This document shows positions 9,898 through 60,526 of a stretch of DNA of 64,000 bases, piece by piece (positions within the stretch are counted from its first letter, which is position 1; each line of letters starts with the position of its first letter). The notes under the pieces are model-generated. The model made no database searches, was not told the origin of the DNA, and saw only the letters and a program-made list of their open reading frames with translations. The stretch is taken from contig NZ_JACJUD010000001.1 in assembly GCF_014174475.1 (NCBI RefSeq), positions 496,001-560,000 on the forward strand. Direction: 5' to 3'. This stretch comes from Aquipseudomonas ullengensis (GTDB lineage: Bacteria; Pseudomonadota; Gammaproteobacteria; Pseudomonadales; Pseudomonadaceae). The position numbers were made by a program, and so were the translations under genes.

Positions 9898-9926
9898 GGG
9901 TGGATAATGCCCGGCATTATCCACCC
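9898..9926. repeat. Perfect 13-bp inverted repeat after hslU
   Basis: The arms GGGTGGATAATGC and GCATTATCCACCC are perfectly complementary around a 3-nt CCG centre. There is no U-run. The sequence belongs to the same GGGTGGATNANGC family as the element at 40434-40504. It probably acts as an hslU mRNA 3' hairpin or is a mobile palindrome remnant. Confidence 0.75.
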
Positions 9927-58542: not shown

Positions 58543-59439
58543 ATGGCCACCGCCAACCCGCGGCGCGGGTACATTCTCGGCCTGATCGCCTACACCATCT
58601 GGGGCCTGTTCCCGCTCTACTTCAAGGCCATCGCGGCCGTGCCGGCGCTGGAGATCATCGTCCACCGCGCGCTCTGGTCGGCGCTGTTCGGCGCTGCGCT
58701 GCTGCTGTTCTGGAAACACCCGGGCTGGTGGCGCGAGCTGCGCGACAATCCGCGGCGCTTTGCCGTGCTGGGCTGCAGCGGCCTGCTGATCGCCAGCAAC
58801 TGGCTGGTGTATGTATGGGCGGTGAACAACGGGCGCATGCTCGAAGCCAGCCTGGGCTACTACATCAACCCGCTGATCAACGTGCTGCTCGGCCTGCTCC
58901 TGCTCGGCGAGCGCCTGCGTCGCCTGCAATGGCTGGCCGTGGGCCTGGCCGCGCTGGGCGTGTTGCAGCAAGTGTGGCAACTGGGCAGCCTGCCCTGGGT
59001 GTCGCTGGTGCTGGCGCTGACCTTCGGCTTCTACGGGCTGATCCGCAAACAGGCGCCGGTGGCGGCATTGCCCGGCCTGGTGGTGGAAACCTGGCTGCTG
59101 TTGCCGCTGGCCCTCGGCTGGCTGCTGTTGCACCCTGCGGCGATGACCAGCCAGGCCAGCTTCTGGAGCACGCCGGAAGCTTTCTGGCTGATCGCCGCCG
59201 GCCCCATCACCCTGGTGCCTCTGGTGTGCTTCAACGCAGCCGCGCGGCACCTGCCGTACACCACGCTGGGCTTCCTGCAGTACCTGGCGCCAACCCTGGT
59301 GCTGCTGCAGGCGATCTTCCTGTTTGGTGAGCATTTCGCGCCGGCCACCCTGGCCTCCTTCGTCTGCATCTGGGCCGGGCTGCTGGTGTACAGCGTGGAT
59401 ATCTGGCTGAGCCTGCGCCGCCGTGGGCAGAGCGTCTAA
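58543..59439 (+). CDS. rarD: EamA family transporter RarD
   Basis: A 298-residue inner-membrane protein with ten predicted TM helices (two EamA repeats). The N-terminus RRGYILGLIAYTIWGLFPLYFKAI and the ASNWLVYVWAVNNGRMLEASLGYYINPL segment match RarD. Annotated in E. coli as a chloramphenicol-sensitivity/exporter protein; the substrate is not established. Confidence 0.9.
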   Translation: MATANPRRGYILGLIAYTIWGLFPLYFKAIAAVPALEIIVHRALWSALFGAALLLFWKHPGWWRELRDNPRRFAVLGCSGLLIASNWLVYVWAVNNGRMLEASLGYYINPLINVLLGLLLLGERLRRLQWLAVGLAALGVLQQVWQLGSLPWVSLVLALTFGFYGLIRKQAPVAALPGLVVETWLLLPLALGWLLLHPAAMTSQASFWSTPEAFWLIAAGPITLVPLVCFNAAARHLPYTTLGFLQYLAPTLVLLQAIFLFGEHFAPATLASFVCIWAGLLVYSVDIWLSLRRRGQSV

Positions 59440-59577
59440 GCCGACGAGGCAACCCGCGCCCACCGCGCGGGTTGCACCCGCCCTACCCGGTAGGAGCAGT
59501 CCATGTCGGGCTGGGTGAAAAACACTCAATCCGCCGCAACCCGCGCCAGTGCTCGCGCTGCGCCAGCCATCCCCGTG

Positions 59578-59586
59578 TTATCCACA
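59578..59586 (+). promoter_or_regulatory. DnaA box 1 (TTATCCACA)
   Basis: Exact match to the bacterial DnaA box; followed at +4 by ATCCCCGG and by the palindrome TTGTGCACAA at 59603-59612. Opens module 1. Confidence 0.7.
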
Positions 59587-59689
59587 GAAGCATCCCCGGC
59601 ATTTGTGCACAAGCCGTTGAAACTGCTTCTTTTTTAGCCATAGCACGGAGAGCCTCGGGGCACTAGGTGCCGGGCTTTGCCTCCCCAGC

Positions 59690-59698
59690 TTATCCACA
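59690..59698 (+). promoter_or_regulatory. DnaA box 2 (TTATCCACA)
   Basis: Exact match, same orientation as box 1 and 112 bp after it; followed at about 20 bp by CCGGGGATAT. Closes module 1. Confidence 0.7.
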
Positions 59699-59852
59699 GC
59701 ACCATCCACGCGAACCGGGGATATCGTCGGTGCATAACCTGTACAGGCGCCCGGCCCGCCAACGGCCTCCTGCCCCCATCGCCACCTGAGCAGAAAACAA
59801 CCAGATCGCTACAGGCCCCGCCAGCACCAGCCTGGAGCAGACTACCCCCGGC

Positions 59853-59861
59853 TTATCCACA
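59853..59861 (+). promoter_or_regulatory. DnaA box 3 (TTATCCACA)
   Basis: Exact match, 275 bp after box 1 in the same orientation; followed by GTCCCCGG and TTGTGCACAA (59878-59887). Opens module 2. Confidence 0.7.
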
Positions 59862-59964
59862 GAAGCGTCCCCGGCGTTTGTGCACAACTGTTTGAATCCG
59901 CTGCATTTTTGATCAGGCAAAGAAAAGCCCCGGGGCACTAGTGCGTGCGCCGGGGCTCCCCAGA

Positions 59965-59973
59965 CTATCCACA
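59965..59973 (+). promoter_or_regulatory. DnaA box 4 (CTATCCACA, one mismatch)
   Basis: 275 bp after box 2 and 112 bp after box 3; followed by ATCCCCG-GCAAA-CGGGGAT, a perfect 7-bp hairpin. Closes module 2. Confidence 0.6.
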
Positions 59974-60007
59974 GCTTCATCCCCGGCAAACGGGGATATG
60001 TCTGCGG

Positions 60008-60526
60008 CTACTCGTCGGTGCGCAGGTTCAACTCCACCATCAGGTCGTCGGCCAGGCCTTCGAGCTTGTCGCGCAGCAGGTCGAGTGACAGGGTCAGCGG
60101 CACGGCCAGCACGGCCACGGCATGGAACAACGGCTCGCTGCTCATCGGCGCGGGCGCCACTTCGGTGGTCAGGCTTTCCAGGTTGACACCCTGCTCGGCC
60201 AGCAGGCGGGTGATGTCGCGCACGATCCCGGGGCGGTCGTTACCGACCAGGTCCAGGTGAATCGGTTTCCAGGTGCACGACGGCTCGATGCCGCTTTCTG
60301 CCAGCAGCACGCGGATGCCGTGGGCGCTGAGCCCCTGCAGGCCTTCCACCAGTTCGTCGTAGCCTTCGGCCGGCACTGCCACGCGCAAGATCCCGGCGAA
60401 CTGGCCGGCCATGCGCGACATGCGGCTTTCCAGCCAGTTACCGCCGTGGGCGGCGATGCACTGGGCGATACGCTCGACCAGGCCGGGCTGGTCCGGGGCG
60501 ATAACGGTGAGTACCAGATGATCCAT
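60008..60526 (-). CDS. Glycine cleavage system repressor-like protein (two ACT domains)
   Basis: A 172-residue protein with two ACT domains: MDHLVLTVIAPDQPGLVERIAQ (about 1-22) and HLDLVGNDRPGIVRDITRLLAEQGVNLESL (about 89-118). GcvR in E. coli modulates GcvA by glycine binding. ATG 60526 has GGGG upstream; the ORF is open for another 16 codons. The gap 60527-60634 has a CCGGAGC/GCTCCGG palindrome (60553-60584) and no gene. Confidence 0.82.
   Translation of the reverse strand: MDHLVLTVIAPDQPGLVERIAQCIAAHGGNWLESRMSRMAGQFAGILRVAVPAEGYDELVEGLQGLSAHGIRVLLAESGIEPSCTWKPIHLDLVGNDRPGIVRDITRLLAEQGVNLESLTTEVAPAPMSSEPLFHAVAVLAVPLTLSLDLLRDKLEGLADDLMVELNLRTDE

Follow-up and report, generated by a model that had tools for sequence, protein, structure and literature searches.

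The DnaA-reactivating sites of Escherichia coli, DARS1 and DARS2, share the spacing of their DnaA boxes, with box I in the orientation opposite to that of boxes II and III, according to a review (PMC5742627). The same review reports that the DARS2 spacing, together with IHF and Fis, is conserved in beta- or gamma-proteobacteria proximal to E. coli (PMC5742627), which counts against the novelty of a site of this type elsewhere. A second paper describes conservation of the DARS2 core among gamma-proteobacterial relatives of E. coli, and places its IBS1-2 3 bp apart (PMC4245941); the same gap separates two IHF-like sites that we found in E. coli DARS2. Three further papers describe datA as requiring boxes 2, 3 and 7 plus one IHF site, at fixed spacing (PMC10950094, PMC4585315, PMC10380432). 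DARS sites as such are already known. Among the matches listed in the open-licence literature, no DARS or datA locus is described in Pseudomonas and no array of cores paired at 112 bp is described at all, so that both appear to be new within that scope; the papers in which the word Pseudomonas was looked for do not mention it.

Here we analyse an intergenic locus found in a stretch of DNA of 64,000 nucleotides (the window). The window contains four DARS-core-like triads arranged as two 112-bp pairs, and we compare their geometry, conservation and surroundings with those of the E. coli sites.

Results

Four DnaA boxes, each starting a triad

The locus carries four DnaA boxes on the plus strand, three copies of TTATCCACA and one of CTATCCACA, which has one mismatch (Table 1). 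Their start-to-start spacings are 112, 163 and 112 bp, which gives a module-to-module distance of 275 bp. An earlier note on this DNA, which had described a duplicated module of DnaA boxes, was exact in the positions and strand of the four boxes and in the spacings of 112 bp within and 275 bp between modules. The order it gave for the shared elements (box, [A/G]TCCCCGG, TTGTGCACAA, GC-rich stretch, box, CGGGGATAT) is present in both modules, with ATCCACG following the second box in module 1. What that note did not contain is the triad as a unit. Each box starts a triad formed by a box (+) at 0, a weaker site (+) at 12 and an inverted box (-) at 26, and it is TTGTGCACAA and CGGGGATAT that occupy the inverted-DnaA-box position, 26 bp past each box. 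The middle site, site II, is weak in the window triads, with 4-6 of 9 consensus letters (triad 4 counted by eye). Ahead of each triad, at offset -11, stands one more conserved box-like site (TCATCCC or CTCCCCA), the fourth.

Table 1. Features of the locus and its neighbours (positions in the window; triad scores are letters matching the consensus in DARS geometry).
Feature	Position	Strand	Details
rarD, EamA-family transporter gene	58543..59439	+	Left neighbour; NCBIfam model TIGR00688 above cut-off
Triad 1	59578..59612	+	21/27, kept in relatives; TTATCCACA 59578-59586 (+), weak GCATCCCCG 59590-59598 (+), inverted site 59604-59612, TTGTGCACA on -
IHF-like site TTTCAACGGCTTG	59610..59622	-	1 mismatch to WATCAANNNNTTR; between triads 1 and 2; adjoining T6 tract 59630-59635
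Triad 2	59690..59724	+	21/27; TTATCCACA 59690-59698 (+), CCATCCACG 59702-59710 (+), inverted CGGGGATAT 59716-59724, ATATCCCCG on -
Triad 3	59853..59887	+	20/27; TTATCCACA 59853-59861 (+), GCGTCCCCG 59865-59873 (+), inverted TTGTGCACA 59879-59887 (-)
IHF-like site ATTCAAACAGTTG	59885..59897	-	1 mismatch to consensus; between triads 3 and 4; T5 tract 59906-59910
GC-rich hairpin, then UUUG	59922..59961	-	Inside module 2
Triad 4	59965..59999	+	20/27, counted by eye; CTATCCACA 59965-59973 (+), TCATCCCCG 59977-59985 (+), inverted CGGGGATAT 59991-59999 (-)
Double-ACT-domain protein gene, gcvR-like	60008..60526	-	Convergent neighbour

Such a layout had been considered too regular to arise by chance, and the counts bear this out. 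Boxes with up to one mismatch number 10 in the 64-kb window against 3.29 expected, and none of 100 shuffles reached 10. In the whole genome there are 23 exact copies of TTATCCACA (13 of the reversed control); three of the 23 fall at the locus, inside 284 bp, and form the densest exact-box group in the genome. The simulated probability that any three of 23 randomly placed boxes would lie inside 275 bp is 2.5e-5. Elsewhere in the window, at 9899-9925, two copies of TTATCCACC lie on opposite strands with their starts 18 bp apart.

The triad geometry was examined both across relatives and across the genome. In an offset scan of 58 box pairs from the genus and 30 from other genera, the strongest box-like position was (-)26 for both boxes and in both sets, followed by (+)12 and (+)-11 once palindrome echoes had been set aside. 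Around the 23 exact genome boxes, the arrangement (12+, 26-) was the best of 2,108 geometries, a set that contains mirror forms of one another, and it tied only with its own mirror form. Nine of the 23 boxes fit this DARS geometry with at least 20 of 27 letters, where the geometries average 0.20 boxes (sd 0.64), and the triad scores of the 23 boxes are nearly bimodal, with nine at 20-23, thirteen at 12-17 and one at 19. When the window locus is left out six boxes fit and the geometry is still top; when a second site in the same genome (L003, described below) is left out as well, five boxes fit and it is tied for top. Two relatives (L023, L025) have a perfect TTATCCACA at +12 of the right-hand triad, whose first box is degenerate, as in DARS1. 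The inverted site in several other genera is TTATCCAC plus one variable base.

Comparison with DARS and datA of E. coli

As reference we used stretches of MG1655 which we take to be DARS1, DARS2 and datA. These stretches carry no DARS or datA label in the MG1655 record; they were picked by map position and recognised by their boxes, as well as by the published datA neighbourhood and, for DARS2, by the two IHF-like sites 3 bp apart. On the reverse strand, the DARS1 and DARS2 cores have boxes at (+)0, (+)12 and (-)26, matching 24/27 and 22/27 letters, and the window triads resemble them in having three sites at 0/12/26 in the orientations ++-. Taking DARS to be defined by the spacing common to DARS1 and DARS2 and by the reversed orientation of box I relative to II and III, the array has the defining geometry, together with a site II that is weak at 4-6/9. 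The strongest box is III in the window array and II in E. coli DARS. Unlike E. coli DARS, the array consists of four tandem cores paired at 112 bp and is near oriC; no counterpart of the 112-bp pairing was seen in the E. coli DARS stretches. The neighbours also differ, being rarD and the gcvR-like gene at the array and bioD/uvrB or rppH/mutH at the E. coli sites, a difference in neighbourhood that concerns orthology with the E. coli loci and not the type of site.

Past box III of DARS2, two adjoining IHF-like sites begin at distances of about 58 and 74 bp; the corresponding distance from box III to the IHF-like site is 67 bp for triads 2 and 4 of the window. Of the 57 genus pairs, 39 have an IHF-like site with at most one mismatch at offset 32 on the minus strand (one of them without mismatch), and shuffles that preserve base composition only have such a site anywhere between the boxes in 2.5% of cases. 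Judging from these motifs, IHF is likely to be involved in the greater part of the genus. A universal role for IHF at the locus was not upheld in other genera, where three of 30 pairs have any IHF-like site and one of 30 has it at the genus offset.

The nearest competitor is a datA-like function, in which IHF would bend the DNA between two boxes, ATP-DnaA molecules would meet, and ATP hydrolysis would inactivate DnaA after initiation. The array and E. coli datA have in common the order box (+), IHF-like site (-), box (+), inverted box (-); both are intergenic, with a terminator (a putative one at the array) nearby, and both lie about a fifth of the chromosome arm from oriC. The locus is far from dnaA, as had been noted: dnaA is at C1:1021687, 466 kb away. 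Among the matches listed, 43 genomes have module and dnaA on one contig (hand-copied coordinates, G119 left out), and the distance between them is 375-708 kb in 42 and 1,161 kb in the remaining one. The median distance is 0.18 of the half-chromosome in the 23 genomes for which a length was used, six of these lengths being rounded to 0.1 Mb. For E. coli, with rounded DARS coordinates, the corresponding values are 0.20 for datA (about 467 kb from oriC), 0.41 for DARS2 and 0.66 for DARS1. This datA-like position, 0.18 against 0.20, is the main evidence against reading the locus as DARS. The region is apparently syntenic among these genomes, and the position is therefore not independent evidence.

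The internal architecture of datA is a different one. E. coli datA has no 0/12/26 triad, its best fit having 5 mismatches in box I, and the boxes that flank its IHF site (taken as boxes 2 and 3) are 162 bp apart, against 112/113 bp in the array. Judged from the boxes that flank the IHF site, with box 7 left unassigned, the array does not contain the combination by which datA is defined, boxes 2, 7 and 3 plus IHF at the E. coli spacing. In addition, most modules of other genera have no IHF-like site, yet their triads persist. We had initially favoured a datA site, given its box/IHF/box order and a similar distance to dnaA; that reading was demoted to a rival because the datA sequence failed the triad geometry while DARS1 and DARS2 showed it, and we consider it unlikely. 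The earlier note had proposed a DnaA-titration or replication-control locus, citing datA and DARS alike: that this is a conserved DnaA-related locus is well supported by the comparison, and of the two types the triad geometry fits DARS, not datA. In the same genome, the chromosomal oriC region that precedes dnaA has DnaA boxes too and a higher AT content than the locus; the stretch of it that was scanned has no triad even at up to 9 mismatches in 27.

Conservation and fixed spacing in relatives

The earlier note had named absence of the boxes from relatives as one of the results that would overturn it. The module is in fact kept across the genus, usually between rarD and the gcvR-like gene. 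With the 446-bp locus as BLASTn query, 125 of 199 genus genomes match at E <= 0.001. A strict composite pattern with free gaps allowed was found at 28 places in 25 of the 199 genomes (control 0), and the inner spacing was identical at 28/28. A sequence-only model (R1), built from 44 of the 45 collected modules with the second-site copy L003 omitted, matched 198/199 genomes at E <= 0.001. At E <= 1e-10 it matched 166/199, a hand count of matches not all confirmed at rarD-gcvR, which includes G001 (6.6e-11), a genome without a box beside its gcvR-like gene. Beyond the genus, the model matched 69 of 79 genomes in a family sample at E <= 1e-4 (7/79 being of the same genus) and 23 of 145 in an order sample at E <= 1e-3 (two of the same genus), many of these matches being partial, at model positions of about 56-162, and not to be counted as whole modules.

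Stretches with an exact core (n = 52) were titled Pseudomonas in 50 cases and Gammaproteobacteria MAG in two. Within the fetched stretch, both rarD and the gcvR-like gene are present in 45 of them, one of the two in six and neither in one, and a 112/113-bp box pair is present in 36/52. The spacing of the 57 unique genus box pairs is 112 bp in 41 and 113 bp in 16, and every other same-strand spacing in the range 40-220 occurs at most twice. The same two distances dominate at 30 loci of which 27 come from other genera (26 from the family search, including three of the same genus, and four from the order search, with near-identical copies included): same-strand 112/113 was seen 34 times, opposite-strand 26 was seen 25 times and others up to 7 times, the rows counted here as elsewhere being related genomes and not independent events. 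When genomes were fetched at a known module or gcvR-like neighbour, both boxes stood at 112/113 bp in 19 of 20. Twenty further genomes were nearly all picked for weak or displaced matches; in seven, one or more boxes lie close to the gcvR-like gene, and in the other 13 no box with up to one mismatch was present in the roughly 1 kb fetched beside that gene, indicating that the locus is dispensable in some species.

Arrays in the genus and at wider family loci contain one to four modules. At six loci of one genus with genomes of 2.7-3.4 Mb (L201-L204, L208, L209) there are two to four box pairs each, with near-consensus inverted boxes; the fetched DNA gave a rarD match in 5/6 and a gcvR match in 0/6. 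Two loci of one other genus (L075, L099) have 112/113 box pairs and neither a rarD nor a gcvR match.

A module number that varies from 1 to 4, and a cluster of exact boxes denser than any other among the mere 23 of this genome, could also be read as passive titration, in which the array would soak up DnaA and delay initiation until its sites were filled. A sink of this kind, however, has no need for fixed 112-bp and 26-bp phasing, and its sites would be few, the DnaA pool of a cell being large relative to those of the array. We regard titration as quite unlikely.

Neighbouring genes and the module-2 hairpin

The locus sits between convergent 3' ends. Of the two flanking genes named earlier, rarD holds (Table 1), and the other, proposed as gcvR-like, encodes a double-ACT-domain protein that is far under the GcvR cut-off. 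Each module had likewise been credited with a GC-rich hairpin. The GC-rich stretch is present in both, and a stable hairpin is present only in module 2, the one proximal to the gcvR-like gene, where it beats shuffles with -30.2 kcal/mol and z -3.98, against z 0.07 for the module 1 equivalent. The module-2 hairpin is possibly the terminator of the gcvR-like gene; a simple terminator scan found none at the locus.

A stable hairpin on the gcvR strand, in the gene-proximal module and at convergent 3' ends, is what one would look for in a local transcription element, that is, a terminator or operator serving either rarD or the gcvR-like gene and regulated by DnaA. We consider this very unlikely for the locus as a whole. 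There is no sigma-70-like site within 59300-60300. Box pairs persist in G043, where the gcvR-like gene has no match, and in G192, G149 and G018, where that gene ends 0.8-1.8 kb from intact pairs, and loci of other genera have a rarD match with gcvR unmatched in the fetched DNA. Absent gcvR matches may represent diverged genes or genes outside the fetched DNA. The persistence of pairs without a nearby gcvR match argues that the unit is independent of the gcvR-like gene and disfavours a mere gcvR terminator.

The earlier suggestion of a secondary replication origin, for which the boxes and the IHF-like site are origin-like and the genus conserves a T tract, is not supported by composition and appears extremely improbable: the locus lacks an AT-rich unwinding region, its AT content peaking at 57% over 40 bp where oriC reaches 72%, and the GC skew undergoes no lasting change of sign there within 124 kb. 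A small structured RNA, which a compact conserved intergenic block might encode, has hardly any likelihood, as the consensus fold is -1.4 kcal/mol with 0 covarying pairs (44 modules, plus strand) and the best Rfam matches (E 1.7 and 4.4) are far under gathering scores. A mobile element was discarded on finding no plasmid or phage match, in searches that are silent on dispersal within chromosomes.

Further DARS-like triads and box patterns in the genome, the genus and the class

A pattern made from boxes II and I of E. coli DARS1, TTATCCACA-N6-GTGGATAA, is present in 195 of 199 Pseudomonas genomes, with 0 for the reversed control. Ten pattern places were fetched from nine genomes and all ten are full triads, with 23-24 of 27 letters (DARS1 24, DARS2 22); nine adjoin the gene of an FKBP-type isomerase and one lies between Lon-like protease and UPF0114 genes. 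Of the 274 genomes in a class sample, 116 carry the pattern, and the table of matches shows none for the control; the count refers to the pattern only and not to full triads. As the II/I pattern is nearly palindromic, another palindrome-binding protein is possible at the pattern sites.

In the genome that contains the window, a DARS1-like triad is found downstream of the FKBP-type isomerase gene (G000:C7:612635-612669, L039/L228), as it is at L231-L235 and L237-L240. This FKBP-side triad is single, has a perfect box II and is closer to DARS1 than the array is. Two triads about 520 bp apart lie between the Lon-like protease and UPF0114 (YqhA-type) genes (G000:C7:193764-194318, L038/L227), and one relative (L236) has a triad between Lon-like protease and UPF0114 genes too. 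The second site mentioned above (G000:C1:604735-604769, minus strand, L003) is a triad of 22/27 about 49 kb from the array, with a YgjP-like peptidase gene and a cNMP-binding/rhodanese gene as neighbours; weak second matches were also seen in G028, G148 and G166. Finally, triads of 23/27 and 22/27 with a perfect box II are found near 311690 on C9 (L040) and near 186005 on C10 (L041).

Discussion

The boxes, their geometry, their pairing at 112 bp and their conservation are observed directly in the genomes compared. From them we infer, with a confidence only a little better than even, that the locus is a tandem DnaA-reactivation (DARS-type) array of paired cores. On a DARS-type array ADP-DnaA would assemble on a triad, occupying site III(+) at 0, II(+) at 12 and I(-) at 26 bp. 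The DnaA molecules on boxes I and II would meet head to head and ADP would be released; apo-DnaA would then depart and bind ATP. The 112-bp pairing may couple two cores, so that their activity is raised or timed, and where an IHF site exists, IHF would be expected to bend the DNA between paired triads. Since the array lies about a fifth of the chromosome arm from oriC, it would double early in replication. Taken at the level of sequence, this arrangement suggests that the locus helps set the timing of chromosome copying.

The triads outside the array allow a wider proposal, which we put forward tentatively and hold to be slightly short of an even chance. The Pseudomonadaceae may control DnaA via a set of DARS-type cores, consisting of a tandem array (2 to 8 triads, with direct-repeat partners 112 bp apart and a species-dependent copy number) plus a nearly universal single core, beside an FKBP gene at most of the places examined. 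The head-to-head I/II pair would then be widespread in the class and not a speciality of E. coli relatives.

To our knowledge, how DnaA is reset in bacteria other than E. coli is largely an open matter. If the triads act as DARS cores, Pseudomonas would provide a locus with a naturally varied core number, and with it a direct way to ask whether initiation timing is set by the number of cores. The sequence rule 0/12/26, ++- would be usable to seek DARS-type sites in other genomes, and cores coupled at 112 bp would represent a form of the DnaA-reactivating machine not described in E. coli.
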